A stretch of DNA of 64,000 nt from contig NZ_JAEK01000016.1 in NCBI RefSeq assembly GCF_000518865.1, positions 1 through 64,000 of the forward strand, written 5' to 3'. Below are positions 29,903 through 44,435 of this stretch, piece after piece; positions within the stretch are counted from its first letter, which is position 1; every line of letters starts with the position of its first letter. Source of the stretch: Bacillus sp. J37 (GTDB lineage Bacteria > Bacillota > Bacilli > Bacillales > Bacillaceae). The position numbers and the translations under genes were made by a program. A model generated the notes under the pieces. It was not told where the DNA came from. It did not search any database and worked only from the letters and a program-made list of their open reading frames with translations.

Positions 29903-31252
29903 ATGCCATTATTATTTACATCTATTGGAGTTGTCATATTACTCATATTAATTATGGGATTTAAACTGAATACCTTTGTGTCACTAATAATCGTATCTTT
30001 TATTGTATCTTTATTATTGGGAATTCCTGCGGGGGATATTGTTCATACAATTGAAAGCGGTTTAGGTGGGACTCTTGGTCATATCGGTTTAATCTTTGGA
30101 CTTGGTGCTATGCTCGGCAGACTGATTGCAGATGCGGGTGGAGCACATCGTATTGCCATGACGTTAATTAATCGGTTTGGGGAAAAGAAAATTCAGTGGG
30201 CAGTGGTGTTTGCTTCGTTTATTGTTGGAATCACTTTGTTTTATGAAGTAGCCTTTGTTTTATTAATTCCGATTATCTTTACAATTGCCAAAGAGTTAAA
30301 CATTTCGATCATTAAGTTAGGTCTGCCAATGAGTTCTACATTATTAGCAACACACTCCTTTCTTCCACCCCATCCAGGTGCGACGGCTGTTGCTGCAGAG
30401 TATGGGGCAGATATGGGGACAGTATTACTCGTCGGTATAGTCATTGCGATACCAACTGTTGCAATTGCAGGAGTGTGGTACACAAGATTAGTAGAGAAAT
30501 GGATGCCGGCTACATTTTCAAGAGAAAGCAATGTAGATTCAATAGGTGAACAAAAAGAGTTTAAAGAGGACGAGACCCCCGGATTCGGAATCAGTGTTTT
30601 TACAGCCATCTTTCCCGTTATTTTAATGACTTTTGGAACAATAGTGGATTTTGTTCAGAGATTAGTAGGTTTTTCAGATAATGGCGTTATCTTATTTATC
30701 CGTTTCATTGGAAACTCTTCTACAGCCATTTTGCTATCTTTATTGTTAGCTATTTACACAATGGGAATTGCTAGGAAGATTCCAATGAGAACATTGATGG
30801 GATCATGTGGAAAATCTATTAATGCCTTAGGAATGCTCCTGCTTATTATTGGTGGAGGGGGAGCTTTTAAGCAGGTTCTTATAGATGGTGGAGTAGGGGA
30901 TTATATCGCTCAACTATTTGAAGGAAAGGCAATCTCACCAGTTTTACTTGCATGGACAGTAGCTGCAATCTTACGTATTGCACTCGGATCCGGCACGGTT
31001 GCTACACTATCAACTGCAGGTTTAGTCATCCCTATATTAAGCCAAACCCCAGACGTAAATTTAGTATTGGTTTCCCTTGCAACAGGGGTCGGAAGTTGTA
31101 TGGGCTCACATGTAAATGACGCAGCGTTCTGGATTGTAAAAGAGTATATGGGAATGACGATGAAGGAAACCTTTGCAACGTATAGTGTTCTTTCTTCTAT
31201 TACAGCTGTAGTTGGATTAGGGTTTATTTTAATTCTTGATGTATTTATTTAG
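29903..31252 (+). CDS. GntP-family gluconate:H+ symporter
   Basis: A 449-residue polytopic permease of the GntP family. Landmarks are GLGGTLGHIGLIFGLGAMLGRLIADAGGA near residue 55, FLPPHPGATAVAAEYGAD in the middle, and GSGTVATLSTAGLV with VGSCMGSHVNDAAFWIVKEYMGM toward the C-terminus. These proteins import gluconate and related sugar acids with protons. It has its own promoter with a GntR-type operator (29613-29673) and a terminator after it, so it is a single-gene member of the regulon that also covers two TRAP transporters. The ligand may be the regulon's sugar acid and need not be gluconate. Confidence 0.9.
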   Translation: MPLLFTSIGVVILLILIMGFKLNTFVSLIIVSFIVSLLLGIPAGDIVHTIESGLGGTLGHIGLIFGLGAMLGRLIADAGGAHRIAMTLINRFGEKKIQWAVVFASFIVGITLFYEVAFVLLIPIIFTIAKELNISIIKLGLPMSSTLLATHSFLPPHPGATAVAAEYGADMGTVLLVGIVIAIPTVAIAGVWYTRLVEKWMPATFSRESNVDSIGEQKEFKEDETPGFGISVFTAIFPVILMTFGTIVDFVQRLVGFSDNGVILFIRFIGNSSTAILLSLLLAIYTMGIARKIPMRTLMGSCGKSINALGMLLLIIGGGGAFKQVLIDGGVGDYIAQLFEGKAISPVLLAWTVAAILRIALGSGTVATLSTAGLVIPILSQTPDVNLVLVSLATGVGSCMGSHVNDAAFWIVKEYMGMTMKETFATYSVLSSITAVVGLGFILILDVFI

Positions 31253-31295
31253 ATATATAAAATAGCGTCTTCTCACAAAGTAGTTACTAGATAAT

Positions 31296-31340
31296 AAAAA
31301 GGTGTTCAAAGAGCCTGGCTTTTTGGAGCATCTTTTTTAT
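31296..31340 (+). terminator. Terminator after the GntP gene
   Basis: Imperfect ~18-bp stem (AAAAAGGTGTTC... with ...GGAGCATCTTTTTT) ending in a T run. Confidence 0.65.
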
Positions 31341-31416
31341 TTTGGATATATGAAATCTTTGATTATAAAAAATAATAGTCCAACTTACATAGTAACAAGG
31401 AAGTATGAAAAAACGT

Positions 31417-31475
31417 TTGACAATTAGTAATATGAAACGTACAATTTAACTACAAGGTTACTTAGTAGACAAGTG
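31417..31475 (+). promoter_or_regulatory. Promoter and GntR-type operator for TRAP operon 1
   Basis: -35 TTGACA (31417-31422), 17-bp spacer, -10 TACAAT (31440-31445), then ACTTAGTAGACAAGT at 31460-31474. Confidence 0.75.
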
Positions 31476-31708
31476 AACAAGGTGAAAAAGATAGTAGTAA
31501 TCTTCATTTCATTTTAAAGAGGTTTATTTACCTTACTTAATATTACTGATTGTGCAGGGTTCTTTTAATGAAGAAGTAATATCTATTTTTATCGAATATG
31601 TAAAGGGTTACATATATTACCTTATTCATATGTGTAATAAACACATGGTCCATGATAAGTAATTTTTATCTTAATAATCTAAACTTAACTTCTTTAGAAA
31701 ATTAAAAC

Positions 31709-31722
31709 TTTAAGCGCTTACA
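31709..31722. promoter_or_regulatory. CcpA cre-like site before TRAP operon 1
   Basis: On the minus strand TGTAAGCGCTTAAA, matching the cre consensus at all but one position. It is downstream of the promoter, so it would act as a roadblock. Confidence 0.6.
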
Positions 31723-31797
31723 AATAATGGGTGTAAATAAGAGTAGGTTTTTCACTATTTAACCCGAAAATAATATGTATCAAAGGGTGGGGATAAA

Positions 31798-32805
31798 ATG
31801 AAAACGCTTCAAAAAATAATGATCATGTTAACAATAGGATTAGCTTTTAGTATATTAGTAGTTTTCTTTACTACTAGTAATGTAGCAGGTTCAAATAACG
31901 AAACTGTTATTAGATTTGGACACGGCGCAGCAGAATCAAATGAACGACATTTAGCTGTTATGAAATTTAAAGAACTTGTAGAGGAAAAATCAGAAGGAAA
32001 AATGAAAGTGCAAGTGTATCCTAATGAACAACTCGGCTCTGAGGCGGAAATGATCGAAAGTGTTACGTTTAATGACCTTCAAATGGTAGCTGCGAGTGCA
32101 TTTAGTCAATATGATCAAAGAATAAGTGTGTTTGAATTACCTTATCTATTTGATTCCTACGAACAAGCGTGGAGTATTCTGGATAGTGATATTGGACAGC
32201 AAGTGGCAAAACCACTATTAGAAGATGGTTTAAGAGTAGTAGCTTATTTCGAGAACGGTTTCCGTCACGTTACTTCAAATAAACCAATTGAAGAACCGGA
32301 AGATTTAGGTGGATTGAAAATTAGAACACCGGAATTTCCATTATCAATAAGTACCTTTAAGGCATTTGGTTCTAATCCAACACCGATGGCATTTGGTGAA
32401 TTATATATGGCTTTACAACAAGGAACTGTCGACGCTCAAGAAAATCCAATTGCGAATACGTATGCTAGTAAATTTAATGAAATTCAAGATTATCTAAATT
32501 TAACTGGACATCAATATATGCCATTACCTGTTGCCATAAGTGAAGAATTTTGGCAAACGCTTACTCCAGAGGAGCAGGAAATTATTAAAAGCAGCGCAAG
32601 TGAAGCTGCAACGTTTCACAGAGATATATTAAGAGATAATGAAGAAAAGATGATTAGCGAACTACAAGACGCTGGCATGACAGTTATTCAACCAGATAGG
32701 GATAAATTTAGAGAAAAAGCTGAAGCCGTTTATGATGCCTATAAAAATAGATTTGGAGAGGAATTTGTTAATAGCCTTTTGAAAGAAGTTGAACAAAACC
32801 AATAA
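31798..32805 (+). CDS. TRAP transporter substrate-binding protein (DctP family), system 1
   Basis: A 335-residue extracytoplasmic receptor of the DctP type. Family features: RFGHGAAESNERHLAVMKFKELVEEKS, FENGFRHVTSNKPI, LKIRTPEFP (the arginine that salt-bridges a carboxylate or sulfonate of the ligand) and ALQQGTVDAQENPI. The N-terminus has a hydrophobic signal (IMIMLTIGLAFSILVVFF) but no lipobox cysteine, so it may be released or stay anchored by its signal segment, unlike its paralogue at 41584. The ligand is therefore probably an anionic, sugar-like molecule. First gene of the P-Q-M operon, 31 bp before the Q subunit. Confidence 0.9.
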   Translation: MKTLQKIMIMLTIGLAFSILVVFFTTSNVAGSNNETVIRFGHGAAESNERHLAVMKFKELVEEKSEGKMKVQVYPNEQLGSEAEMIESVTFNDLQMVAASAFSQYDQRISVFELPYLFDSYEQAWSILDSDIGQQVAKPLLEDGLRVVAYFENGFRHVTSNKPIEEPEDLGGLKIRTPEFPLSISTFKAFGSNPTPMAFGELYMALQQGTVDAQENPIANTYASKFNEIQDYLNLTGHQYMPLPVAISEEFWQTLTPEEQEIIKSSASEAATFHRDILRDNEEKMISELQDAGMTVIQPDRDKFREKAEAVYDAYKNRFGEEFVNSLLKEVEQNQ

Positions 32806-32835
32806 GTTTCAAACTACACATGAGGAGGATATGAC

Positions 32836-33363
32836 ATGAAAGGAATCAAGTGGTTAGATGAATACTTTGAAGAATATATCTTAATCGGATTAAGTATTTT
32901 AACGGTAATGATTGTATTCACACAAGTATTTATGAGATATGTGCTTGGAGAGTCTCTTACTTGGTCAGAGGAAGTTGCAAGGTATCTATTTATTTGGATG
33001 ATTTATGTAGGTATTAGTTATGGAGTAAAAAAAGAGAAACACCTTGGGGTCGATGCATTTCCAATGCTGTTTGAAAAAAAGGGGAAAATTATCATTGATA
33101 TGATAGCTAGTTTCTCATTTTTACTATTTGCTGTTATCATGACTTACTACGGTTTTGATATCGTCCTAAAGGTAACGAGAGAATCAGCTGCATTGGAACT
33201 GCCTCTTGAATGGGTTTATGCTGCCCCTGTCGTCGGAATGATTTTAACGTCGATTCGTCTCATTCAAAAATTAGTTCGTTTAGTAAACCAATTGAAAACG
33301 TTAAATCTTCCTAAGTTTGACAAGAGTGAAGAACAGACTGATCTTCAGGAGGAAATTGTATGA
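32836..33363 (+). CDS. TRAP transporter small membrane subunit (DctQ), system 1
   Basis: A 175-residue four-helix membrane protein: helices near residues 13-33, 45-70 (SEEVARYLFIWMIYVGISYGVKKEKHLGVD, the family signature), 90-110 and 125-145. It forms the small subunit of the Na+-coupled TRAP permease and docks the binding protein. GAGGAGG before the ATG; its stop overlaps the start of the M subunit by four bases, indicating translational coupling. Confidence 0.9.
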   Translation: MKGIKWLDEYFEEYILIGLSILTVMIVFTQVFMRYVLGESLTWSEEVARYLFIWMIYVGISYGVKKEKHLGVDAFPMLFEKKGKIIIDMIASFSFLLFAVIMTYYGFDIVLKVTRESAALELPLEWVYAAPVVGMILTSIRLIQKLVRLVNQLKTLNLPKFDKSEEQTDLQEEIV

Positions 33364-34628
33364 CTAGTTTTGTATTATTTGGTACTTTCTTTTTGTTTAT
33401 GCTACTATCCGTCCCGATTGCGATATCTCTAGGGTTAGCCGGTTTAATTACAGCTGTTTATTCACCGAATATTTCCATTACATTTCTTGCACAAGGCTTT
33501 GTCACTTCGACTGATAATTTCGCGTTAATGGCCATTCCTTTTTTTATCCTGGCCGGTGAGATAATGGGTAAGGGAGGAATATCAGCAAGATTATTTAATT
33601 TAGCTAACATATTTGTAGGACGATATACTGGTGGCTTCGCAATAGCTGCAGTTATCACTTGTATGTTTTTTGCTGCTATCTCCGGATCGGGTCCTGCAAC
33701 AGTAGCAGCAGTTGGGGGCATTATGATACCTGCAATGGTAGCACAAGGCTATGATAGAAAATTTGCAACCGCTGTAATTGTTACGGCAGGATCAATGGGG
33801 ATTATTATTCCTCCAAGTATCCCAATGGTTCTTTATGGAATATCAGGAAACCAGTCAATTGGGGACTTATTCCTGGGTGGTATTATTCCTGGAGTTTTAA
33901 TTGGAATTTGTTTAATGATCTGGTGTTATTTCTATTCCAAAAAGAAAGGGTATTCAGGTACCCAAGAGAGCTTTAGCTTTAAAAAGATGCTTATTGCTTT
34001 AAATCAAGCTAAATGGTCACTTTTAGTCCCAATCATCATTTTAGGGGGAATATATGGAGGGATATTTACTCCAACAGAGGCAGCCGTTTTTGGAGTTGTT
34101 TACGCAGCTTTTGTTAGTATATTCCTGCATAAAGAAATCAAATTCAGCCAATTCCCAAAGATTATTGCGGAAGCGGCTATAAGCTCTGTTGCTATTTTGA
34201 TCATTATTGGAACAGCAAACGCCTTTGGTACTATTTTAACAATGGAGAAAATACCACAAGCTGTTGCTGAGTCTTTCTTATCAGTATCTGAAAACTCAAT
34301 TGTGATCATTTTAATTATCATTCTTCTGTTGCTTATTATTGGATGTTTTATTGATACATCAGCAGCAGTGATTATCTTTACACCAATTCTTTTTCCGGTA
34401 GCAAGCCAAGTAGGTTTAGATCCAATTCACTTTGGAATTATCATGATTGTGACATTATCGATTGGTTTTATTACACCGCCACTTGGTGTAAATCTATTTG
34501 TCGGATCAGGTATATCCGGACTTAGTATGCCTACATTAGTAAGAGCTGTTGTTCCGTTCTTTTTCATCATGCTTGTTAGTTTGGCTATTATTGCGGTTAT
34601 ACCCAAATTAACACTTTTATTACTTTAA
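33360..34628 (+). CDS. TRAP transporter large membrane subunit (DctM), system 1
   Basis: A 422-residue, about 12-helix permease. Signature segments are ILAGEIMGKGGISARLFNLA, AAISGSGPATVAAVGGIMIPAM, IIIPPSIPMVLYGISG and GFITPPLGVNLFVGSGISG, the paired Na+-binding hairpins of this elevator-type transporter. It is the last gene of the first TRAP operon; a short terminator follows. Very similar in layout to the DctM at 43155, so the two TRAP systems arose by duplication. Confidence 0.92.
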   Translation: MTSFVLFGTFFLFMLLSVPIAISLGLAGLITAVYSPNISITFLAQGFVTSTDNFALMAIPFFILAGEIMGKGGISARLFNLANIFVGRYTGGFAIAAVITCMFFAAISGSGPATVAAVGGIMIPAMVAQGYDRKFATAVIVTAGSMGIIIPPSIPMVLYGISGNQSIGDLFLGGIIPGVLIGICLMIWCYFYSKKKGYSGTQESFSFKKMLIALNQAKWSLLVPIIILGGIYGGIFTPTEAAVFGVVYAAFVSIFLHKEIKFSQFPKIIAEAAISSVAILIIIGTANAFGTILTMEKIPQAVAESFLSVSENSIVIILIIILLLLIIGCFIDTSAAVIIFTPILFPVASQVGLDPIHFGIIMIVTLSIGFITPPLGVNLFVGSGISGLSMPTLVRAVVPFFFIMLVSLAIIAVIPKLTLLLL

Positions 34629-34635
34629 GTTTGAG

Positions 34636-34662
34636 TGAGAGATAATATCTCTCCTCTTTTTT
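34636..34662 (+). terminator. Terminator after TRAP operon 1
   Basis: GAGAGATA/TATCTCTC stem followed by CTC and a run of seven T. Confidence 0.7.
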
Positions 34663-34697
34663 TAGCAAAATATAAATTTATTAAAAATAATTTGTAT

Positions 34698-34784
34698 ACT
34701 TAGTAGACAAGTAAAAGTGGAAGATGTATACTACAGGTATAGAAAAACTTGTTAGACAAGTGCGGCATAACTTGTATGACAAGT
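34698..34784 (+). promoter_or_regulatory. Promoter with three GntR-type operators before the split transketolase
   Basis: Promoter TAGACA (34704-34709), 17-bp spacer, TATACT (34727-34732). Operators: ACTTAGTAGACAAGT at 34698-34712 overlapping -35, ACTTGTTAGACAAGT at 34747-34761, and ACTTGTATGACAAGT at 34770-34784. The last two are close to the known B. subtilis GntR operator type (ACTTGTATACAAGT). This is the densest operator set in the regulon. Confidence 0.75.
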
Positions 34785-34834
34785 GAACAACATTATAAGA
34801 TTACAATTTTAAATAAATCATTGAGGTGATAAAG

Positions 34835-35668
34835 TTGAAAAATATAAGTATTGAAGAATTAAAAGACATAGCCATTGAAATGAGAAAAACAGCTGTAACA
34901 ATGATTCACAAAGCACAATCAGGTCATCCGGGTGGGTCACTATCTGCTGCGGACTTAATGACAGCGCTATATTTTAAAGAAATGAACATCGATCCAAGCA
35001 ATCCTAATTGGGAAGATCGTGACAGATTTGTCCTTTCCAAAGGACATGTTTGTCCAATTCTATATTCAGCTTTAGCCTTAAAAGGGTATGTTCCATATGA
35101 CACAATTTACACGTTAAGAGAATATGGCTCTCCATTCCAAGGACACCCAGACATGAAGAAATGTCCTGGTATTGATATCTCAACTGGATCTTTAGGTCAA
35201 GGACTTTCATGTGGTGTAGGGATGGCGATTGCAGGAAAACGAGATAAAAAAGATTATCGTGTCTTCTCATTATTGGGTGATGGTGAATGTCAAGAAGGTC
35301 AGATTTGGGAAGCAGCTCAGACTGCAGTGAAATATCAATTAGATAATTTAGTCGTGTTTGTCGATAACAACAGACTTCAAATCGATGGTTTTACTGATGA
35401 AATCATGCCATTACAAGATTTAGAAAAGAAATTTGAAGTGTTTGGATTTGAAACAAAACGAATCGATGGACACTCAATGGAAGAGATTGTTGAAACTCTT
35501 GATGAAATAAGAGCTGCTAAAAATGGAAAACCAAAATGTATCGTGATGGACACTGTAAAAGGTAAAGGTGTTTCTTATATGGAAGATGTTGCTGAATGGC
35601 ACGGGGTAGCTCCTAATGATGAAGAATACAAACAGGCAATTGGAGAAATCGCAGGGGGGTTAAAATAA
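34835..35668 (+). CDS. Transketolase N-terminal (TPP-binding) subunit, first copy
   Basis: A 277-residue half-transketolase carrying the pyrophosphate-binding domain: SGHPGGSLSAADLMTALYF, RDRFVLSKGH, STGSLGQGLSCGVGMAIA and the TPP/Mg motif GDGECQEGQIWEAAQ ending at VDNNRLQIDG. Such halves work only with a partner C-terminal subunit, here the next gene (TAATG overlap). I start at the TTG at 34835, which follows GAGGTGATAAAG; a GTG at 34826 would lie inside that ribosome site. The pair transfers two-carbon ketol units. With no kinase gene in this regulon, its substrate may be a non-phosphorylated or sulfonated/carboxylated sugar. Confidence 0.9.
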   Translation: MKNISIEELKDIAIEMRKTAVTMIHKAQSGHPGGSLSAADLMTALYFKEMNIDPSNPNWEDRDRFVLSKGHVCPILYSALALKGYVPYDTIYTLREYGSPFQGHPDMKKCPGIDISTGSLGQGLSCGVGMAIAGKRDKKDYRVFSLLGDGECQEGQIWEAAQTAVKYQLDNLVVFVDNNRLQIDGFTDEIMPLQDLEKKFEVFGFETKRIDGHSMEEIVETLDEIRAAKNGKPKCIVMDTVKGKGVSYMEDVAEWHGVAPNDEEYKQAIGEIAGGLK

Positions 35669-36618
35669 TGAGTATCTTAGAAAAAACGCTAACGACAAAG
35701 AAAGCAACTAGAGAAGCTTTTGGTGATGAAATTGTAAAGTTAGGAAAGGAAAATAAAGATATTTATGTCATTGATGTTGATATTGCGAAATCGTGTAAAA
35801 CGAGCAACTTTATTAAACAATTACCTGATCAACATATAAATGTTGGAATTGCAGAGCAAAATGCAGCTGGATTAGCAGCAGGACTTGCAACTACTGGAAA
35901 GATTCCTTTTGTAAGCACTTACGCAGTTTTCGGTTCTTTAAGAATGGCAGAGCAAATTAGACAAGAAGTTTGTTATCCAAACTTGAATGTTAAAATTGCT
36001 TGTTCTCACGGTGGATTAACTCCAGCTAACGATGGTGGAAGTCACCAGGCAATTGAAGATATGGGAGTATTAAGAAGCTTTCCAAATATGACAGTCATTA
36101 TGGGGGCAGATTACTATTCTACTAGAAAGCTAGTTGAGCAAGCGGCAAACATGTATGGTCCAGTTTACCTCCGCTTTACAAGAGATACAGTTCCAATGAT
36201 TTATGACGAAAATGAAGAATTCACAATCGGTAAGGCCAAAAAATTACAAGATGGTTCAGACATTGCTATTATTGCAAACGGTGACACTGTGCGCTTAGCA
36301 ATTGAAGCGACAAAAGAGTTAGAAAAAGAAGGAATCTCTGTCAAGCTATTAGATATGCATACAATTAAACCATTAGACCGTGAGGCTGTGGTTGAATGTT
36401 TAGAAGTTGGAAAAATTATTACTGTTGAAGATCACAATATTTTAAATGGTTTGGGCAGCGGTGTATGTGAAGTTGTAGCAGAAGAAGGCAGAGGTAAGGT
36501 AAGCAGAATCGGGGTTCAGGATCAATTTGGTCAGTCTGCGCCATATGAAAAACTATTAGAACTGAATGGAATCACTGTTGAGAATATTATTGGTACTGCT
36601 AAAAATATGCTTCGATAA
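35668..36618 (+). CDS. Transketolase C-terminal subunit, first copy
   Basis: A 316-residue partner containing the pyrimidine-binding and C-terminal domains: INVGIAEQNAAGLAAGLA with the glutamate that activates the TPP aminopyrimidine, SHGGLTPANDGGSHQAIEDMG, YLRFTRD and a C-terminal regulatory-like domain (LLDMHTIKPLDREAV). It overlaps the N-subunit gene by one base, so the two are made in equal amounts. An SDR gene follows after 41 bp in the same operon. Confidence 0.9.
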   Translation: MSILEKTLTTKKATREAFGDEIVKLGKENKDIYVIDVDIAKSCKTSNFIKQLPDQHINVGIAEQNAAGLAAGLATTGKIPFVSTYAVFGSLRMAEQIRQEVCYPNLNVKIACSHGGLTPANDGGSHQAIEDMGVLRSFPNMTVIMGADYYSTRKLVEQAANMYGPVYLRFTRDTVPMIYDENEEFTIGKAKKLQDGSDIAIIANGDTVRLAIEATKELEKEGISVKLLDMHTIKPLDREAVVECLEVGKIITVEDHNILNGLGSGVCEVVAEEGRGKVSRIGVQDQFGQSAPYEKLLELNGITVENIIGTAKNMLR

Positions 36619-36659
36619 TCTTTGAAATAAATAAATTATAAAATTGGGAGTGGAAGAAA

Positions 36660-37418
36660 ATGTTTCAATTACATGATAGAGTAGCAATCGTAACAGGAAG
36701 TGGATCTAAAAAAGGGATTGGACGTACAATTGCATTAGCACTTGCAAAACAAGGTGCAGCGATAGTTGTAGCTGATTTAAATCTAGAAGGAATCGATGAT
36801 ACTGTAAACGCCATTACTGAAGCTGGTGGTAAGGCGTTAGGTGTAGAATTAAATGTTACAAACAAAGAGTCTGTTGACGCTATGGTAGAAAAAGTACTCG
36901 CAGAATACGGAAGAATTGATATTCTCGTTAATAATGCGGGAATATCTCAAAAAGTAACTGTACAGGACATGACACTTGAGGATATGACGAGAGTCTTTAA
37001 TGTTAATATGTTTGGTCTGTTCCTATGTACTCAAAGTGTACTAGAGCCGATGAGAAAACAAAAGTTTGGTCGCATTATCAACCTTTCCTCTGTATCTGCT
37101 AAAAGAGGTGGAGGAGTTTTCGGCGGAGCGCACTATTCAGCATCTAAAGCTGCTGTATTAGGCTTCTCTAAAAATCTTGCACGTGAAGTAGCTGTGGATG
37201 GCATCACAGTAAACAGTGTTGCACCTGGACTAGTTAACACTGAAATTTGGAAGTCTCTTCCTGAAGAAGATGCAAAGAAGGTTATTGATAGCATCCCAAT
37301 GGGTAGACCTGGTGAAGTTAGTGAAATTGCCTCAGCTATTGCATTCTTAGCGTCAGAAGAAGCATCTTATATTACAGGCGAAGAAATAGATATTAACGGT
37401 GGTTCTCACATGGATTAA
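36660..37418 (+). CDS. Short-chain dehydrogenase in the transketolase operon
   Basis: A 252-residue classical SDR: VTGSGSKKGIGRTIALALA (cofactor loop with the extra SK insertion seen in some sugar dehydrogenases), VADLNLEG (acidic residue at beta-2), NNAGISQ, YSASKAAVLGFSKNLARE and the C-terminal ITGEEIDINGGSHMD. It starts at an ATG after GGGAGTGGAAGAAA. Third gene of the operon driven from 34698-34784, so it probably oxidises the imported compound or reduces an aldehyde left by the transketolase. Confidence 0.9.
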   Translation: MFQLHDRVAIVTGSGSKKGIGRTIALALAKQGAAIVVADLNLEGIDDTVNAITEAGGKALGVELNVTNKESVDAMVEKVLAEYGRIDILVNNAGISQKVTVQDMTLEDMTRVFNVNMFGLFLCTQSVLEPMRKQKFGRIINLSSVSAKRGGGVFGGAHYSASKAAVLGFSKNLAREVAVDGITVNSVAPGLVNTEIWKSLPEEDAKKVIDSIPMGRPGEVSEIASAIAFLASEEASYITGEEIDINGGSHMD

Positions 37419-37462: not shown

Positions 37463-37505
37463 AACATTCATTTTAATAGTTTTCTATAACATAATATAGA
37501 GAGAA

Positions 37506-38216
37506 GTGAGGACGATCAATTTTATCCCTGTTTCCAGTAAAAAACTATATATTCAAATTTATAATCAAATACTATCAGAGATTGAAGTTGGCGTAGTTAA
37601 AGAAGGGGAAAAACTGCCTTCGGAAAGAGAGTTATGTGAACTTTTTAATGTGAGTCGAGCACCTGTTAGACAGGCTCTCAGTGCATTAGAGTTGAATGGA
37701 GTTATCTATTCACGCCAAGGGGAAGGCATATTCGTGAAAAATAGTAAGGTTCTTACAGGGAATTTTCAAACATCATTCTTTTTAAAATTGATTTCCCCAG
37801 AGGATATTGTTGAAGCAAGAATGAGTATAGAGCCGTTAATAATTGAATTTGCTGCACTAAGAGCTACAGATGACGATATTAAAGCACTTCAAAAGACGAT
37901 CAAAAAGATGGAAGAAGAAACGAAATCTGGAGTATACGTACCGGAAACAGATGAAACATTACACAAACAAATAGCAGAGGCTTCCCATAATGACTTATTC
38001 ATAAAGTTTATGTCGGCTATTAGTAATGCAATGAAGCAACAGGAAATGTGGCATTTTATTCGAGATAGGACGGTAACCAGACCAGATTATAGAGATATAA
38101 ATTTTAAAGAACACTTATCTCTTATCAAAGCTATTGAGGAACATAATGCAAAAAAAGCAGTAGAATTAATGACCTCTCATATGGAAAATCTTTATGAGCG
38201 ATATTGGAAGGCATAA
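37506..38216 (+). CDS. FadR/GntR-family regulator (FCD domain), copy 1
   Basis: A 236-residue regulator: N-terminal winged helix (KLYIQIYNQILSEIEVG; KLPSERELCELFNVSRAPVRQALSALELNGVIYSRQGEGIFV) and C-terminal FCD ligand domain (ISPEDIVEARMSIEPLIIEFAAL; ETDETLHKQIAEASHN; FKEHLSLIKAIEEHNAKKAVELMTSHM, with the Asp/His metal ligands). Such FCD proteins bind small carboxylates with a metal ion. It lies in the middle of the regulon carrying ACTTGTnnnACAAGT operators and is its probable repressor, together with its paralogue at 39344. The GTG at 37506 is used here; an ATC at 37515 is an alternative discussed in the findings. Confidence 0.9.
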   Translation: MRTINFIPVSSKKLYIQIYNQILSEIEVGVVKEGEKLPSERELCELFNVSRAPVRQALSALELNGVIYSRQGEGIFVKNSKVLTGNFQTSFFLKLISPEDIVEARMSIEPLIIEFAALRATDDDIKALQKTIKKMEEETKSGVYVPETDETLHKQIAEASHNDLFIKFMSAISNAMKQQEMWHFIRDRTVTRPDYRDINFKEHLSLIKAIEEHNAKKAVELMTSHMENLYERYWKA

Positions 38217-38318
38217 TATATAGATGACATGAAGAGATCTTAAATTCTCTATAAACAAAGTGCAATCGTAAAGAAAGCAAATGTAAAAGTAAAAGACTAA
38301 GCTATAAAACAAAGAACA

Positions 38319-38374
38319 TTGACAATTGATGGATTGAAAAGTAAACTAAATATAAGTACGCTTGTATGACAAGT
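38319..38374 (+). promoter_or_regulatory. Promoter and GntR-type operator for the SR1P-isomerase unit
   Basis: -35 TTGACA (38319-38324), 17-bp spacer, -10 TAAACT (38342-38347), operator GCTTGTATGACAAGT at 38360-38374. Confidence 0.75.
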
Positions 38375-38421
38375 ACACAAGTATACGAATTTACGATTAA
38401 TTGAATGGGGGAGAAGAACAG

Positions 38422-38550
38422 ATGGGTACAGTAATTTGCCAAAATTGTAATTCAACGATCGATCACTTTGAAAATGAAAAGGTAACTGTTCTTTATTCTA
38501 AGTGTGAATGCTGTGACAACGCTAAAAAGATTGATCGTACAAAAAAATAA
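38422..38550 (+). CDS. sr1P: SR1P, GapA-binding peptide
   Basis: A 42-residue protein, MGTVICQNCNSTIDHFENEK then VTVLYSKCECCDNAKKIDRT KK. I recognise it as SR1P, the peptide encoded by the dual-function B. subtilis RNA SR1: same start, a CxxC zinc-like motif, HFE(N/D)EKVT(V/T)LY and a second Cys pair. In B. subtilis SR1P binds GapA (glycolytic GAPDH) and alters RNase J1 activity, and SR1 RNA also base-pairs with ahrC mRNA. Here GGGGGAG precedes the ATG. It is unusual that the gene is placed behind a GntR-type operator in a sugar-catabolism regulon and just before an RpiB-type isomerase gene. Confidence 0.85.
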   Translation: MGTVICQNCNSTIDHFENEKVTVLYSKCECCDNAKKIDRTKK

Positions 38551-38657
38551 TTTTATATTCGTTCTTTTTGGAATCAAATGAAAAGGTTTTCAGTTTAATA
38601 ACGTATAACTTAGTAATAAAATCAAAGTTATGGATATACACGAGTAGGAGGGAAAAA

Positions 38658-39107
38658 ATGAAAGTAGCTATTGCATCAGATCATGGTGGTATAACCATCC
38701 GCAAAGAAATTATCTCTTTGCTTGAGGAAATGAATGTAGATTATATTGACTTAGGGTGTGAATGCCAATCCTCAGTAGATTACCCTGATTATGCTGTCCC
38801 AGTAGCAGAAATGGTAGCAAAAGGTGAGGTAGAAAGAGGCATATTAGTGTGTGGCACTGGTATAGGAATGAGTATTGCTGCTAATAAGGTAAAGGGAATT
38901 CGTTGTGCACTTGTTCACGATACCTTCAGTGCTAAAGCAACAAGGGAACATAATAACTCGAATATTCTAGCTATGGGAGAGCGTGTCATTGGTCCAGGAT
39001 TAGCTCGTGATATTACAAAAATATGGTTAACTACCTCCTTCGAAGAGGGCGAAAGACATGAAAATCGTATTAGAAAGGTAACAGAACTTGAAATGCAATA
39101 TAGATAA
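38658..39107 (+). CDS. RpiB/LacAB-type sugar isomerase
   Basis: A 149-residue RpiB-family isomerase: MKVAIASDHGG phosphate-site start, DLGCECQSSVDYPDYA, and the active-site ILVCGTGIGMSIAANKVKGIRCALVHD with C65 as catalytic base. The frame is open further upstream, but AGGAGGGAAAAA directly before the ATG at 38658 and the family start fix it there. RpiB proteins interconvert aldose and ketose phosphates (ribose, allose, galactose, erythrose); related enzymes accept sulfo-sugars. With the split transketolase in the same regulon it forms an isomerase-transketolase route. It is probably co-transcribed with sr1P and ends in a terminator. Confidence 0.88.
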   Translation: MKVAIASDHGGITIRKEIISLLEEMNVDYIDLGCECQSSVDYPDYAVPVAEMVAKGEVERGILVCGTGIGMSIAANKVKGIRCALVHDTFSAKATREHNNSNILAMGERVIGPGLARDITKIWLTTSFEEGERHENRIRKVTELEMQYR

Positions 39108-39115
39108 TGTTATAT

Positions 39116-39146
39116 GAGAGTGATGGTCTGCCCATCACTCTCTTTT
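39116..39146 (+). terminator. Terminator after the isomerase gene
   Basis: Perfect 11-bp stem GAGAGTGATGG/CCATCACTCTC followed by TTTTA. Confidence 0.8.
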
Positions 39147-39266
39147 AATGCTTTGGAAACTAGAGAAGTGGTACGAAGGGGACTTCTGGGTTACCCATAA
39201 AGAAATCAAACAGCAGCAATCAACAAGAATAGCTTCGATATATGTTAAATTAATCCTGTATTAGTG

Positions 39267-39320
39267 TTGCTCTTTAAAAGAGAAAAGCTTATAATTAAAT
39301 GTGTTTTAGTAACGTTTACA
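39267..39320 (+). promoter_or_regulatory. Promoter with downstream cre for GntR copy 2
   Basis: -35 TTGCTC (39267-39272), 17-bp spacer, -10 TATAAT (39290-39295). TAGTAACGTTTACA (39307-39320; minus strand TGTAAACGTTACTA) is cre-like and would block initiation under glucose. No GntR-type operator is visible here. Confidence 0.6.
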
Positions 39321-39343
39321 CGTAAGAATACATATTGAGAGAA

Positions 39344-40051
39344 GTGATTAAAATTAGCTTTAATCGAGTATCCAGTGAAAAATTATATATACAAATTTAT
39401 AATCAAATTCTTTCAGAAATCCAATCAGGATCTTTCAATATAGGTGATAAATTACCTGCAGAACGAGAGCTTTGCGAACAGTTTGGAGTTAGTCGTGCTC
39501 CGATTAGACAAGCATTAAGTGCTCTTGAGTTGAATGGTATCATTTACTCTCGTCAAGGAGAAGGTGTGTATGTTAAAAATACACAAATATTAAATCATTC
39601 TGATTCAGCTTTTATATTGGATTCAACCTCACCAGAAGACATTGTAGAAGCAAGAATGAATATTGAGCCGGTTATTATTAAATATGCTGCACTAAGAGCA
39701 ACTGACGAGGATATTGAGGAACTTCGCTCAACTATTCAAAAAATGGAGGAAGAAACAAAGTCTGGCATATACGTCCCGGATACTGATGAAGCCCTTCATA
39801 AAGGAATAGCAAAGGCTTCTCATAATGACTTATTTATTAAAATTATGGCTGCAATTAGTAATGCAATGAAACAGCAGGAAATGTGGAAGCTCATTAGAGA
39901 TCGGACATTTACTCGTCCAGATTATCGAGACGTTAACTTTGAAGAGCATAAAATGCTTATTAAAGCCATCGAAGAGCATGATGAATTGAAAGCTGTGGAA
40001 CTAATGACGACTCATATGCAGAACCTCTATGATCGATATTGGAAAGATTAA
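39344..40051 (+). CDS. FadR/GntR-family regulator (FCD domain), copy 2
   Basis: A 235-residue paralogue of the regulator at 37506; the two align from end to end (RVSSEKLYIQIYNQILSEIQ; KLPAERELCEQFGVSRAPIR; SPEDIVEARMNIEPVIIKYAAL; RDRTFTRPDYRDVNFEEHKML). The FCD domain is intact. The GTG at 39344 is the start shared with copy 1 by alignment of the leader GAGAGAAGTG; a TTG nine bases upstream and an ATT at 39353 are alternatives. Two near-identical repressors in one regulon may form heterodimers or bind different effectors. Confidence 0.9.
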   Translation: MIKISFNRVSSEKLYIQIYNQILSEIQSGSFNIGDKLPAERELCEQFGVSRAPIRQALSALELNGIIYSRQGEGVYVKNTQILNHSDSAFILDSTSPEDIVEARMNIEPVIIKYAALRATDEDIEELRSTIQKMEEETKSGIYVPDTDEALHKGIAKASHNDLFIKIMAAISNAMKQQEMWKLIRDRTFTRPDYRDVNFEEHKMLIKAIEEHDELKAVELMTTHMQNLYDRYWKD

Positions 40052-40078
40052 TTGTAAAAGAACGGTTATAATAAATGC

Positions 40079-40130
40079 TTAAAGGACTTTATCAAGGTTT
40101 CCATTCTTGATAAAGTCCTTTTTATATTTT
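40079..40130 (+). terminator. Terminator after GntR copy 2
   Basis: Perfect 16-bp stem (40081-40096 with 40106-40121) and T-rich tail. Confidence 0.85.
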
Positions 40131-40176
40131 GGTATAAAAAAGCAACGGAAGGTTCTGAATATTCTTTTGATTTACA

Positions 40177-40238
40177 TTGACATTTAGGTCAAGGGTAGAT
40201 ATACTGTGATTATAAGTTAACTTAGCATACAAGTTAAC
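40177..40238 (+). promoter_or_regulatory. Promoter and GntR-type operator for the dehydrogenase-TRAP 2 operon
   Basis: -35 TTGACA (40177-40182), 17-bp spacer, -10 TATACT (40200-40205), then GTTAACTT-N7-AAGTTAAC (40216-40238), an 8-bp perfect inverted repeat containing CTTAGCATACAAG. Confidence 0.78.
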
Positions 40239-40274
40239 AAGATTATAAGATGACAATATTGTTTTTTTAATTTT

Positions 40275-40288
40275 TGTAATCGCTAACA
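40275..40288. promoter_or_regulatory. CcpA cre site TGTAATCGCTAACA
   Basis: Full match to the cre consensus TGNAANCGNNNNCA, 36 bp downstream of the GntR-type operator. A second near-match, TGTAAGCGATTACT, lies at 40419-40432 close to the dehydrogenase start. Confidence 0.7.
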
Positions 40289-40476
40289 AAATAGTCTCCA
40301 GTTACCTTTTTGAGTTGAAAACATCAGAAGTTCTTAGTAGATTTCGCTTATTGTGTATGGCTTCTGCTGTATGTTACATCCTGTTCTACTCATTAAGGTT
40401 ATGTTTTATCTTTTAAAATGTAAGCGATTACTTGTCTGCGTTGTTCTCATGAAAAATAGCTTAAGGGGGAATGGCT

Positions 40477-41502
40477 TTGAAAGCAGCATTATTTGATAGG
40501 GTTGAACATTTTACGGTCATTGGAAAAGAGGTGCCAAAAATAAAGGGGAATGATGTGTTAATTAGAGTGATAAGTGCCGGGATATGTGGTTCTGATATTC
40601 ATGCATATTTGGGAAAACATCCTTTTCGGCATCCACCAAGCATTTTAGGACATGAAGTAGTCGGCAAAATAATAGAGGTGGGGAATAGTGTCTTAACGTT
40701 TGAAGAAGGAGATATGGTCACGATTGAACCGCAGATTGGATGTGGGAATTGCAATTCTTGTATAAAAGGGGACTACAATCTTTGCGAAGAAAAAGTTGTA
40801 CTCGGAACAACCGAGTGGGATGGGGGGTTCGCAGAATATGTAGTAGCTAAAGAGAAGAGTGTTTACAAACTTCCGAAAACGCTAACGCCAGATTTAGCTG
40901 TCCTTACAGAACCTCTTGCAGTAGGTGTTCATGCTGTAAATATTGCCGAAGTAAAACAGGGAGATAAAGTAGCCATACTTGGTTCAGGACCTATAGGACT
41001 TGTTACGGCAGTTGCTGCTCATGCCAAAGGGGCTGAAACGATATGTCTGACAGATGCCATCGATAAAAATTTAGAAATAGGAAAAAAATTATGTGCAACG
41101 GATGTTGTGAATGTAAGGTATCAATCCTTAAAAGAATATGCTGCTGCTCATATTGGTCAATTTGATCATGTTTTTCTTACAGCGAGTTATGAAACGATAG
41201 TAGATGATGCTTTGAATGTGTTGAAAAGAAAAGGAAAAATCATTTCTATTGCCTTATTCGAAGAACAAATTTCGATTGATTTAAATAGATTGATGATTTC
41301 AGAGATTCAGATATATGGATCTTCAATGTATGTAAAAGAAGACTTTGATATGGCAATTGATATTTTAGCGAGTCGTAAGTATAAGCTTGAATCATTAATT
41401 ACCCATAGGTATCACTTTGACCAGATAAATGAGGCGATGGAAGTAGCCTTAACAAAAAATGGTTCTCCAATAAAAGTGGTTGTTGATATGATGAAAATTT
41501 AG
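40477..41502 (+). CDS. Zinc-dependent medium-chain alcohol/polyol dehydrogenase
   Basis: A 341-residue MDR-family dehydrogenase. Catalytic zinc ligands are C37 in AGICGSDIHAY and H59-E60 in LGHEVVG; the structural zinc site is C89-x2-C92-x2-C95-x7-C103. The NAD-binding fold follows with VAILGSGPIGLVTAVAAH and an acidic residue (TDAID). It resembles sorbitol and threonine dehydrogenases and probably oxidises a secondary hydroxyl of a sugar acid or polyol. I prefer the TTG at 40477, seven bases after AAGGGGG; the ATG at 40471 is too close to that site. It precedes the second TRAP system by about 80 bp and shares its operator-controlled promoter. Confidence 0.9.
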   Translation: MKAALFDRVEHFTVIGKEVPKIKGNDVLIRVISAGICGSDIHAYLGKHPFRHPPSILGHEVVGKIIEVGNSVLTFEEGDMVTIEPQIGCGNCNSCIKGDYNLCEEKVVLGTTEWDGGFAEYVVAKEKSVYKLPKTLTPDLAVLTEPLAVGVHAVNIAEVKQGDKVAILGSGPIGLVTAVAAHAKGAETICLTDAIDKNLEIGKKLCATDVVNVRYQSLKEYAAAHIGQFDHVFLTASYETIVDDALNVLKRKGKIISIALFEEQISIDLNRLMISEIQIYGSSMYVKEDFDMAIDILASRKYKLESLITHRYHFDQINEAMEVALTKNGSPIKVVVDMMKI

Positions 41503-41583
41503 TCTCTACTTTCTTTGTTAAAAGATAGGTGCGTTTTAAAAAAATGCCTATTAAAAATATATATACGATTATAAGGGGGAGTA

Positions 41584-42597
41584 ATGATGAGAAAAACAGC
41601 TTTATCATTTATGTTAGTAATTTTAGTGGTCTTTTTAGCTGCTTGTGGTGGAAAAGAAACATCTAGTGATAGTAAAAAAAGTAATGACAATGGGGACAAA
41701 ATTACGATTAAATTTGCACATAGTGCCGTCGAATCAAACTCAAGACATGAGGCTGCTTTGAAATTTAAATCTTTAGTAGAAGAGAAGTCCAATAATCAAA
41801 TAACAGTTGAAGTTTTCCCAAATGAGGTTTTAGGTAGTGAGCCGCAAATGGTTGAAGGTGTTTCATTTAACGATATTCAAATGGTAGCTGCTAGTACGTT
41901 TGCACAATATGAACCAAAGGTAGATGTTTTTGGGTTACCTTTCTTATTTGAGACAAATGAACAGGCATGGGAAGCATTAGACGGCCCAATTGGTGAGGAA
42001 GTATTTTCAGGATTACTTGATGACAACTTACGTGTGCTGGGACATTTCGAAAACGGATTCAGACATGTTACGAATAATTCAAAACCAATTGAAAAAGTTG
42101 AAGATTTAAAAGGATTAAAGATTCGCACGCCTGAAATGCCTATATTAGTAAGCATCTTTGAATCGCTTGGATCAAACCCTACCCCAATGGCATTTGGAGA
42201 ACTCTATATGGCCTTACAACAAGGTACGGTGGATGGACAGGAAAATCCGATCTCAAATATCCATGCAACGAAGTTCTATGAAGTTCAAAAATATCTAAGT
42301 TTAACAAGTCATTCATATAGCCCAACTACTGTCGCAATAAGTGATGAATTTTGGCAAACGTTAACATCCGAACAGCAGGAAATCGTTCAATCAAGTTTAA
42401 AAGAAGCTTCAACATTTCATAGAGACTTAGTTATGAAGGATGAAGAAACTCTTTTAAAAGAGCTGGAAAAAGAGGGAATGAAAGTGAATAAACCTGATAT
42501 CGCATCTTTTAGAGAAGCTTCCAAATCTGTCTATGAAGAATATGAAGATACTTATGGTAAAGACCTTATCGACCGTATCCTAAAGGCTCAAGAGTAA
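41584..42597 (+). CDS. TRAP transporter substrate-binding lipoprotein (DctP family), system 2
   Basis: A 337-residue DctP receptor, clearly paralogous to that at 31798 (FENGFRHVTNNSKPIEKVEDLKG... LKIRTPEMP; QQGTVDGQENPISN). It carries a lipoprotein signal with lipobox LAAC (C20 or C21), so it is anchored to the outer face of the membrane. The conserved arginine in KIRTPEMP predicts an anionic ligand. AAGGGGGAGTA precedes the ATG; a second ATG one codon later is equally possible. A terminator lies between this gene and the small permease gene. Confidence 0.9.
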   Translation: MMRKTALSFMLVILVVFLAACGGKETSSDSKKSNDNGDKITIKFAHSAVESNSRHEAALKFKSLVEEKSNNQITVEVFPNEVLGSEPQMVEGVSFNDIQMVAASTFAQYEPKVDVFGLPFLFETNEQAWEALDGPIGEEVFSGLLDDNLRVLGHFENGFRHVTNNSKPIEKVEDLKGLKIRTPEMPILVSIFESLGSNPTPMAFGELYMALQQGTVDGQENPISNIHATKFYEVQKYLSLTSHSYSPTTVAISDEFWQTLTSEQQEIVQSSLKEASTFHRDLVMKDEETLLKELEKEGMKVNKPDIASFREASKSVYEEYEDTYGKDLIDRILKAQE

Positions 42598-42606
42598 AAA
42601 GGTGAG

Positions 42607-42654
42607 AAAAGCAGAATCTATCCGAATGGTTATCTTCAGTGGATTCTGCTTTTT
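42607..42654 (+). terminator. Intra-operon terminator between TRAP 2 binding protein and permease
   Basis: Stem AAAAGCAGAATC/GATTCTGCTTTTT with a 23-nt loop. It would make the binding protein in excess over the permease subunits. Confidence 0.75.
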
Positions 42655-42671
42655 ATAAAGGGGGTAAATTT

Positions 42672-43145
42672 ATGTCGGTTATAAAATGGTTAGATGAGAA
42701 TATAGAGGGCTTCTTACTTATTTTACTTAGTATCCTAACAGTAGTAGTCGTTTTTATCCAAGTGTTTATGAGGTATGTATTAAGTGCCTCTCTTGTTTGG
42801 TCAGAGGAATTAGCCAGGTATGCTTTTATATGGATGATTTATATTGGGGTAAGTTATGGAGTAAAACGGCAAGCACATATAAGCGTTGACGCATTGGCAA
42901 TGCTGTTTAAAAGGAAAGGTAAGTTTTTGTTAGCCATGTGCGCAAATTTAGCATTTTTAGCATTTGCTGTTATTCTCATATACTTCAGTTTTGAAGTCGT
43001 CATTCAAGTTACACGTACTTCACCGGCTTTAAATATACCTATGCAATGGGTGTATGCAGCTCCAATGGTTGGATTATTATTAACGGCTATTCGAATCATT
43101 CAAAGAATGAAAATTCAATTTGATCTATTTAGATCTGGGGAGTAG
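42672..43145 (+). CDS. TRAP transporter small membrane subunit (DctQ), system 2
   Basis: A 157-residue four-helix protein with the DctQ signature SEELARYAFIWMIYIGVSYGVKRQAHISVD. An in-frame ATG at 42639 would start inside the terminator stem, whereas AAGGGGGTAAATTT directly precedes the ATG at 42672. Paralogue of the DctQ at 32836. The M subunit gene begins ten bases after its stop. Confidence 0.9.
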   Translation: MSVIKWLDENIEGFLLILLSILTVVVVFIQVFMRYVLSASLVWSEELARYAFIWMIYIGVSYGVKRQAHISVDALAMLFKRKGKFLLAMCANLAFLAFAVILIYFSFEVVIQVTRTSPALNIPMQWVYAAPMVGLLLTAIRIIQRMKIQFDLFRSGE

Positions 43146-43154
43146 GTGATAAGT

Positions 43155-44435
43155 ATGACAGCACTTGTATTATTTGGTAGTTTCGTATTCTTTTTACTTT
43201 TAACTGTTCCTATCGGTATATCTCTGGGATTAGCTTCTCTTGTCACAATTTTGTATGCAGATGTCACATCAGTTGAATATCTCGCACAAAGTCTTGTTCA
43301 ATCTACTGATTCATTTCCTTTAATGGCAGTTCCTTTCTTCATTTTAGCAGGAGAGATTATGGGGAAAGGTGGAATATCAGAGCGTCTTTTTAAGCTGGCT
43401 AATGTTTTTGTTGGTAATTTTACAGGTGGTTTCGCAATGGCGGCGGTACTGACTTGTATGTTTTTTGCAGCGATTTCCGGATCTGGTCCTGCAACAGTTG
43501 CAGCAGTTGGAGGGATTATGATTCCAGCAATGGTTGGATATGGCTATGATAAAAAATTTGCTACCGCAGTTGTCGTAGCTGCCGGTGCACTAGGTATTAT
43601 CATTCCACCAAGTATCCCTATGGTTATATACGGTGTATCTGGAAGTGTATCAATTGGTGATATGTTTATTGCCGGTATTATACCTGGAGTACTAATTGGT
43701 GTCGTAATGATGGCATGGAGTTATATTTACTCGAAAAAGAATAACTATAAAGGAAATGGTGAAAAGTTTACATTTAAAAGAGCGCTATCCGGGATTAATG
43801 AGGCGAAGTGGGCCATATTTATTCCTATCCTTATCTTAGGAGGCATATATGGAGGTATCTTTACACCAACAGAGGCGGCTGTAGTTGCTGTTGTATACGC
43901 GGCAATTATTAGTATTTTTGTTTATAAAGAGCTGACATTTAAAACATTTCCTAAAGTATTAAAGGATGCAGCATTAACATCTGCAACAATATTAATTATT
44001 ATTGGGACGGCAAATGCATTTGGAAGAATTTTAACGATGGAACAAATTCCTAGATTGGTAGCTGATTCATTGTTAAGTGTATCGTCTAATCCTCTTGTCA
44101 TATTATTGCTTATTAATCTCTTGCTATTATTTGTTGGAATGTTTATGGATACTGTAGCAGCAATCATTATATTAGTTCCAATCTTATTGCCTATTGCCAT
44201 TAATATTGGAATCGACCCAATTCAGTTTGGAATTATCATGATTGTAAACTTGGCAATTGGTTTTATCACTCCACCAGTAGGTGTAAATCTATTTGTTGGG
44301 TCTGGAATATCGGGGTTATCAATCGAGTCTCTTGCTAAAGCTACGGTTCCATTTTTTATTGCGATGATTTTAAGTTTAACGGTTATTACAGTCATTCCTG
44401 AAGTGTCTCTGTTCTTGGTTGAGTTTTTTAAATAA
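43155..44435 (+). CDS. TRAP transporter large membrane subunit (DctM), system 2
   Basis: A 426-residue permease with about 12 helices and the same landmarks as system 1 (ILAGEIMGKGGISERLFKLA; AAISGSGPATVAAVGGIMIPAM; GFITPPVGVNLFVGSGISG). TAGGTGATAAGT precedes the ATG at 43155, and a GTG three codons earlier overlaps that ribosome site. Last gene of the dehydrogenase-TRAP 2 unit; I see no clear terminator after it, but a fresh promoter for tpx begins only 20 bp downstream. Confidence 0.92.
   Translation: MTALVLFGSFVFFLLLTVPIGISLGLASLVTILYADVTSVEYLAQSLVQSTDSFPLMAVPFFILAGEIMGKGGISERLFKLANVFVGNFTGGFAMAAVLTCMFFAAISGSGPATVAAVGGIMIPAMVGYGYDKKFATAVVVAAGALGIIIPPSIPMVIYGVSGSVSIGDMFIAGIIPGVLIGVVMMAWSYIYSKKNNYKGNGEKFTFKRALSGINEAKWAIFIPILILGGIYGGIFTPTEAAVVAVVYAAIISIFVYKELTFKTFPKVLKDAALTSATILIIIGTANAFGRILTMEQIPRLVADSLLSVSSNPLVILLLINLLLLFVGMFMDTVAAIIILVPILLPIAINIGIDPIQFGIIMIVNLAIGFITPPVGVNLFVGSGISGLSIESLAKATVPFFIAMILSLTVITVIPEVSLFLVEFFK

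Follow-up and report, generated by a model that had tools for sequence, protein, structure and literature searches.

A putative sugar-acid regulon with a transketolase in place of a sugar kinase and an operator-linked copy of SR1P

In the sulfo-transketolase pathway of Clostridium sp. MSTE9, a two-subunit transketolase (TK), SqwGH, moves a two-carbon (C2) unit from a non-phosphorylated anionic ketose to glyceraldehyde-3-phosphate (G3P), and SqwI is an isomerase of family PF02502, according to the parts of PMC9594981 and PMC11659671 that we consulted. Here, we describe a gene cluster at positions 29903-44435 of a 64,000-nt window (positions 1 to 64,000 of contig NZ_JAEK01000016.1) from a soil-dwelling relative of Bacillus, which resembles this pathway, as compared by description, in having a split TK, with proposed C2 transfer to G3P, and a PF02502 isomerase. 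The cluster differs in that its ketone would be produced by a dehydrogenase and its isomerase scores as a ribose-phosphate enzyme; in addition, the receptors of its TRAP transporters resemble carboxylate binders, and the regulon showed no sulfonate gene. With a probability of about 0.55, we read it as a catabolic regulon for small sugar acids, in which a TK takes the place of a sugar kinase and the same operator also precedes a copy of the small protein SR1P.

The D-apiose transketolase pathway (AptAB) likewise has a split TK with G3P as the acceptor, and needs a kinase and ABC import; a pentulose kinase was not found at 29903-44435. Gene sets of methylotrophs for the ribulose monophosphate (RuMP) pathway carry extra pfk, fba, tkt, and rpe genes. 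These sets share with the window cluster the combination of a carbon unit fixed on a sugar phosphate with acceptor-regenerating enzymes; however, in the window cluster a sugar acid would supply this unit as a C2 ketol, whereas the RuMP unit is formaldehyde.

All genes of the cluster lie on the plus strand, in the order GntP permease, TRAP transporter 1, split TK, short-chain dehydrogenase (SDR), GntR regulator, RpiB, GntR regulator, zinc dehydrogenase (ZnDH), and TRAP transporter 2. The window matched Metabacillus halosaccharovorans (L009), whose cluster proteins were 99-100% identical. Open reading frames (ORFs) and family matches agreed on the inventory drawn up in the earlier note (GntP, two TRAP systems, split TK, RpiB-type isomerase, SDR, ZnDH, and two FadR-type regulators), as well as on its statement that a sugar kinase is missing, since neither the ORF list nor family searches gave any kinase among the ORFs of 29903-44435. 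That inventory was nevertheless incomplete: it overlooked the SR1P ORF (38422-38550) and the thiol peroxidase gene tpx (44564-45100).

The TK is encoded by an N-terminal half carrying the thiamine diphosphate domain (TktN, 34826..35668, PF00456) and a C-terminal half (TktC, 35668..36618, PF02779/PF02780); family searches and residues both identified it as a split TK, as in the sulfo-transketolase pathway. It keeps the residues aligned to an Arg, Ser, His, Asp, and Arg of the genome's ordinary TK, which we take to be those of the substrate site. A scan of bacterial genomes for relatives gave at least 80 loci, and the counts below come mostly from the first 48 (L009-L056). TktN was present in 47 of these, TktC in 46 by ORF calls and in 48 with tblastn on L040 and L041, an SDR in 47 (within 9 kb), and a FadR-type GntR regulator in 38. 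In a tree of 75 TktC rows, 48 rows formed one clade with support of 100/100, to which the window protein belongs and which was found in Bacillaceae, Paenibacillus, Staphylococcus, Clostridium, and spirochaetes. Moderate support (89/88) placed the Clostridium rows among those of Bacillaceae, a position suggestive of transfer.

The clade was rare. Within the order, 6 of 299 sampled genomes, own genome counted, carried TktN at ≥78% identity; in the spirochaete phylum sample, the clade was found in 3 of 392 genomes, and in the phylum of the Tissierellia locus in 4 of 398 (query genome counted in both cases), one of the latter four (57%) lying just outside the clade. A sister locus outside the clade, L110, has the order PfkA-TK-ZnDH-TRAP and no SDR. 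Plasmid records gave four TK matches, all below 60% identity, and the one that was opened, on an Enterococcus gilvus plasmid, was an rpiB-fsa-Dha-TK cluster. No description of such a TK cluster was found in the literature, as judged by titles and abstract openings. Overall, C2 transfer by a dedicated TK clade is supported at the sequence level, and a kinase-free transfer from an anionic sugar seems likely.

The GntP-family permease (29903..31252) scored 582.1 bits with TIGR00791 (cut-off 293) and matched PF02447. Family searches identified TRAP transporter 1 at 31798..34628 (DctP 31798-32805, DctQ 32836-33363, and DctM 33360-34628) and TRAP transporter 2 at 41584..44435 (DctP 41584-42597, DctQ 42639-43145, and DctM 43146-44435). 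Within 9 kb of the TK genes, 23 of the 48 loci had an MFS transporter, 14 a TRAP system, and 8 a GntP permease, some loci having two kinds. The MFS protein tested was nearest to the D-galactonate transporter model, under its cut-off (299.8 versus 395); by eye, spirochaete loci had a TTT transporter and single loci a Liv-type ABC system or other carriers. TRAP, GntP, MFS carriers of the galactonate-transporter kind, and TTT thus swap for each other around a constant TK core, in agreement with the earlier suggestion that the substrate is probably anionic.

The earlier note had also assigned to the TRAP receptors an arginine that binds an acidic group, and this was borne out by alignment. Arg160, Arg181, Asn221, Glu86, and Phe204 were invariant in all 14 aligned DctP receptors, so that the two arginines, the asparagine, the acidic residue, and the aromatic residue of a hydroxy-carboxylate DctP were all present. 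They align to Arg152, Arg173, Asn213, Asp76, and Tyr196 of 4P47. The best-scoring solved receptors belong to one group, for which the assignment of ligands to individual entries is our presumption. Some of its members hold pantoate or erythronate and many hold co-purified ligands, and the five positions of 4P47 are those named for this receptor and its kin, in the parts of PMC11668362 consulted. The isethionate receptor IseP keeps both arginines but has Asn77 at the position of the acidic residue, which makes a sulfonate substrate less likely.

In the proposed pathway, the anionic hydroxy-acid would be imported by GntP and the two TRAP systems, as their families suggest. The SDR (36660..37418, PF13561), the proposed sugar-acid dehydrogenase, and/or the ZnDH (40471..41502) would then oxidise the next-to-last hydroxyl to give HOCH2-CO-(CHOH)n-COOH, and two dehydrogenases with two receptors would serve two epimers that yield one ketol-acid. 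Judging from its family and residues, the TK would transfer HOCH2-CO to G3P, giving xylulose-5-phosphate and a shortened aldehyde-acid, which would be glyoxylate from a C4 acid and tartronate semialdehyde from a C5 acid. RPE, RpiB, or RpiA would lead the product into the pentose-phosphate pathway, and PfkA and aldolase would return hexose phosphate to the G3P acceptor, a step for which the related loci argue. The earlier note proposed repeated C2 transfer from one substrate, which this model does not require but leaves room for. Dehydrogenases may be exchangeable among loci, since an SDR is mostly present, with ZnDH in L110 and a D-2-hydroxyacid dehydrogenase in two spirochaete loci. The substrate would be a small hydroxy-acid of four or five carbons.

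RpiB (38658..39107, start ATG at 38658) scored above the equivalog cut-off for ribose-5-phosphate isomerase B (TIGR01120, 170.3 versus 138.65), with conserved residues in the alignment, and failed the cut-offs of the erythrulose-4-phosphate and galactose-6-phosphate isomerase models. It was 76% identical to a second RpiB of the genome, encoded at the glyA-upp locus. A tree of 35 rows placed 11 of the 17 other RpiBs, including the glyA-upp copy, in a clade (99/93) beside the cluster copies, with short branches. The remaining six comprised four among the Bacillaceae cluster rows, one alone nearby, and one that is clostridial, as is the RpiB of the Clostridium drakei cluster.

Around the related TK genes, RpiB was present in 18 of 48 stretches, a PfkA-type protein in 15, and RpiA and fructose-bisphosphate aldolase (FBA) in 3 each. 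RpiA, in place of RpiB, occurred in three Staphylococcus clusters, and all three proteins were over the curated cut-off, as was FBA in all three of its loci. Two of three PfkA proteins tested were over the TIGR02482 cut-off, that of L027 lying just under it (365.8 versus 371.35). RPE was encoded within the L023 cluster (312.5, cut-off 212.6), and farther away, beyond an opposite-strand gene, in Clostridium magnum. RpiA or RpiB, RPE, PfkA, and FBA are the enzymes required to convert xylulose-5-phosphate to hexose phosphate and to regenerate G3P from it, and such partners speak for a phosphorylated product rather than for isomerisation of the shortened acid. As RpiB is close to its housekeeping paralogue and is replaced by RpiA or joined by RPE, PfkA, or FBA, it most likely acts on pentose-phosphate products. 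Its score, paralogue, short branches, and replacement in Staphylococcus do not sustain the proposal that it is an analogue of SqwI.

Among 14 cluster PfkA proteins, 10 had the motif GGEGS (L013, L017, L019, L021, L022, L023, L025, L027, L029, and L034), 2 had GGDGS, presumably the usual motif, and 2 were not matched. GGEGS could possibly reflect a changed sugar-phosphate substrate, such as sedoheptulose-7-phosphate.

The 15-base motif RCTTRKHWKACAAGT had seven exact forward sites in the window, at 29656, 31460, 34698, 34747, 34770, 38360, and 40220, every one of them upstream of a cluster gene, which bears out the view that the cluster forms one regulon. At up to one mismatch, both strands of the window gave 11 matches in 8 places, compared with 0.73 expected. 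In six units (GntP, TRAP1, TK, SR1P-rpiB, ZnDH, and, through a one-mismatch operator at 44500, tpx), the operator begins 12-14 nt past the -10 box of a promoter-like match. These comprise the GntP promoter TTGACA-17-TATTAT with the operator 29656-29670 (29613..29670), the TRAP1 promoter with the operator 31460-31474 (31417..31474), the three TK operators with a weaker promoter-like match (TAGACA) at 34704-34732 (34698..34784), the SR1P-rpiB promoter TTGACA-17-TAAACT with the operator 38360-38374 (38319..38374), and the ZnDH promoter with the operator 40220-40234 (40177..40234), all on the plus strand. The promoter scan overall was modestly above chance (79 matches versus 59.8, sd 6.9), and its three best plus-strand matches belonged to operator-linked units. 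No exact operator of its own was seen for either regulator gene or for TRAP2.

Of 46 related loci, 29 had an exact operator no farther than 300 nt from TktN, and none did when the same stretches were read backwards. Outside the window, the genome held two exact sites, both within ORFs, and a regulon reaching beyond the window by exact sites was rejected. Genome-wide counts at one mismatch were below those of the reversed-pattern control (28+24 versus 56+65), so that only exact sites are informative; of 35 outside places at one mismatch, 6 were opened, 5 of them within ORFs and 1 (C27:6465) intergenic beside unrelated genes. The two FadR-type GntR regulators (37506..38216 and 39335..40051, both PF00392+PF07729) would act as repressors that bind just downstream of the -10 boxes and respond to an inducer.

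Between the operator at 38360 and rpiB lies a 42-aa ORF (38422..38550), which matched SR1P well above the Pfam gathering score (PF13790, 71.9 versus 26 bits); it had no NCBIfam match. The surrounding stretch (38370..38570) aligned with the full length (1-210) of the SR1 sRNA model RF02376, with a score of 38.2 bits, under the gathering score of 45; the genome's canonical SR1 scored 35.2 bits, likewise under it. Six of nine SR1P stretches matched this model, one of them over 45. The genome of the window thus has two SR1P copies: the canonical SR1 adjoins a speA-like gene (by eye), whereas the cluster copy, unlike SR1 of Bacillus subtilis, stands behind a FadR-type operator and before rpiB, although it falls in the same Pfam SR1P family as the B. 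subtilis protein and matches the SR1 sRNA model over its full length, below the threshold. In B. subtilis, the canonical SR1 is repressed by CcpN and CcpA, according to the part of PMC8152036 consulted. As far as the consulted parts of PMC8152036 and PMC7430163 go, SR1P of B. subtilis binds GapA and promotes its interaction with RNase J1, more gapA mRNA goes with SR1P (the two reviews disagreeing on stabilisation), and the 23 homologues listed in 2012 were all at one genomic location. No report of an SR1P copy in such a regulon was met in the portions of the SR1P literature consulted.

By a profile made here, 12 of 18 cluster loci had an SR1P-like ORF inside the 900 nt that precede rpiB, and the 3.4-kb stretches around 17 other rpiB genes had none. 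Such ORFs occurred anywhere in 19 of 48 TK loci, some before TRAP or near Pfk genes. When 30 host clusters were searched by Pfam model and coordinates, SR1P exceeded the cut-off in 17 and narrowly missed it in another 3. About ten loci had the typical form, and divergent forms were seen in Neobacillus, Oceanobacillus, and a few others. In the genome of Domibacillus that contains L023, a different contig (G1103 contig C41, L230) has SR1P ahead of a partial rpiB match, possibly a second or decayed TK cluster.

The SR1P copy is more surprising than the rest of the cluster. Its product should bind GapA and tune the use of G3P; GapA and TK both draw on G3P, so SR1P would tune an enzyme that competes with the TK. 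Tentatively, we suggest that a duplicated SR1/SR1P was captured by the sugar-acid regulon, such that the presence of the acid would lead the peptide to bind GapA and hold back or re-tune G3P oxidation, sparing the TK acceptor.

Several observations weigh against the sugar-acid regulon as a whole or in part. The ZnDH scored 208 against a cut-off of 380 for the threonine 3-dehydrogenase model, the SDR was recognised by broad models only, and of the pentose-phosphate partners RpiB alone is present in the window cluster, which has no PfkA, FBA, or RPE. TktN had no exact operator in 17 of 46 loci. The signs for the chain length are mixed between C4 and C5: of 40 host genomes, 27 had a homologue of tartronate semialdehyde reductase (E ≤ 1e-60), which the window species lacks, and the D-2-hydroxyacid dehydrogenases of spirochaete clusters were under every specific cut-off. 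About half of the cluster SR1P copies were divergent, an operator with up to one mismatch lay within 200 nt of an SR1P-like ORF in 9 of 22 cases (exact in 5), and SR1P may work through RNA decay or the level of gapA mRNA, not through G3P flux.

Foremost among the more specific or competing explanations, though itself unlikely, is a C4 route, in which D-erythronate and L-threonate would be oxidised at C3 by the SDR and ZnDH to the same 3-oxo-tetronate, from which the TK would make xylulose-5-phosphate and glyoxylate. The receptor neighbours and the threonine-dehydrogenase-like ZnDH suggest such an acid. The former fall in the pantoate/erythronate group (PMC11668362, in part) but are distant and often hold co-purified ligands. 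As for the ZnDH, its top two solved matches were threonine 3-dehydrogenases, enzymes that oxidise a C4 acid at C3; however, the margin was narrow, ketose reductase, alcohol dehydrogenase, and L-idonate 5-dehydrogenase being near-tied and all under their cut-offs. No glyoxylate enzyme was recognised among the clusters read, as far as their genes were listed, and the tartronate semialdehyde reductase of two clusters fits a C5 acid better.

That reductase suggests a C5 route, a doubtful one as well, in which D-arabinonate and/or L-xylonate would give 4-oxo-pentonate, and the TK would then form xylulose-5-phosphate and tartronate semialdehyde, to be reduced to glycerate. It scored over the cut-off of 397 in L018 (435.6) and just under it in L055 (393.7), where it sits between TRAP and TK. 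Its absence from 13 of the 40 hosts, the window species included, speaks against this route, and as a universal partner of the TK it was rejected. A D-2-hydroxyacid dehydrogenase follows TktC directly in the spirochaete loci L053 and L106, at the place where the SDR stands elsewhere, but these proteins stay below every specific cut-off, and in L107 the corresponding gene lies on the opposite strand at a distance of about 2.5 kb. The TK clusters of L053, L106, and L107 have a TTT transporter, two TIM-barrel isomerase-like genes, and a D-2-hydroxyacid dehydrogenase; the one TIM-barrel gene tested was nearest to xylose isomerases, and L107 additionally encodes a ribulokinase and, by eye, a lyxose-isomerase-like cupin.

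It is also improbable that the TK set serves solely to reinforce the ordinary pentose-phosphate pathway, with breakdown of the transported acid left to enzymes encoded elsewhere in the genome. The cluster RpiB, RPE, PfkA, and FBA are indeed all pentose-phosphate or glycolytic enzymes; however, a separate TK clade travels with an acid transporter and a dehydrogenase, and both exact operators outside the window are in coding DNA.

Very improbable is a route like the sulfo-transketolase pathway, in which a sulfosugar or a C6 uronate or aldonate would be shortened twice by the TK, with RpiB isomerising the C4 intermediate. Its TK and PF02502 isomerase would be of the same families as SqwGH and SqwI (PMC9594981, in part), but RpiB is close to the housekeeping enzyme and has RpiA as its substitute in Staphylococcus, and the receptors, despite sharing both arginines, carry an acidic residue at the position of Asn77 in the isethionate receptor. 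Among the ORFs of 29903-44435, families for SqvD, SqwF, an exporter, or an SQase were not seen, nor were a sulfoquinovose isomerase, a sulfoacetaldehyde reductase/dehydrogenase, or a sulfonate exporter. Membership of the sulfo-transketolase pathway as such was rejected on account of the RpiB-type isomerase and of the missing SqvD, SqwF, and exporter. Thus, of the pathway analogy offered by the earlier note, the kinase-free C2 transfer from an anionic substrate is likely, the SqwI-like isomerase is most likely wrong, and the likeness to sulfo-sugar breakdown is a loose one. Least likely of all is the oxidation of glycerate to hydroxypyruvate, the classic decarboxylating TK donor, which would accord with the D-2-hydroxyacid dehydrogenase at the SDR place in L053 and L106, but would waste carbon relative to glycerate kinase and for which we know of no SDR or ZnDH of these kinds.

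When 398 genomes were searched with the sulfoquinovose isomerase family (SftI), 18 of them yielded a total of 19 matches at E ≤ 1e-60, and no match exceeded the cut-off. Ten regions around such matches (ten genomes, one on a 5.6-kb contig) had no split TK by BLAST against the window proteins, and held mostly ABC, GlpK, and Pfk-like genes. By eye and BLAST, most of the clostridial clusters L133-L142 had an SftI-like isomerase with Pfk-like, aldolase-like, sugar ABC, and GlpK/GlpA-like genes; these clusters may represent another sulfosugar or glycoside route.

Two neighbours of the cluster were also noted. The thiol peroxidase gene tpx (44457..45100 with promoter and operator, plus strand) is a possible further member of the regulon, its one-mismatch operator standing at the same spacing from the promoter, and 14 of 48 related stretches have Tpx close to their TK cluster. 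A second cluster of the window, at 46474-56252, is nearer to the D-apiose layout than that at 29903-44435. It has a LacI-type regulator (by eye), another split TK, an Rbs-type ABC transporter, a FucI/SftI-type isomerase (NF048012, 108 bits, cut-off 700), and a kinase over the glycerol kinase cut-off (627.6 versus 590), a score that speaks for glycerol despite the layout. Its TK does not have the residues that align with His and Asp of the substrate site, both of which are kept in the TK of 29903-44435.

If the reading of 29903-44435 as a sugar-acid regulon is right, chain-shortening by TK would be a general kinase-free route for anionic sugars, beyond sulfoquinovose. If the capture of SR1P is true, a substrate-induced small protein would reroute glycolysis at the enzyme level. 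The cluster copy makes SR1P physiology testable, as it offers a defined regulon, a competing enzyme in GapA, and natural paralogues to swap.

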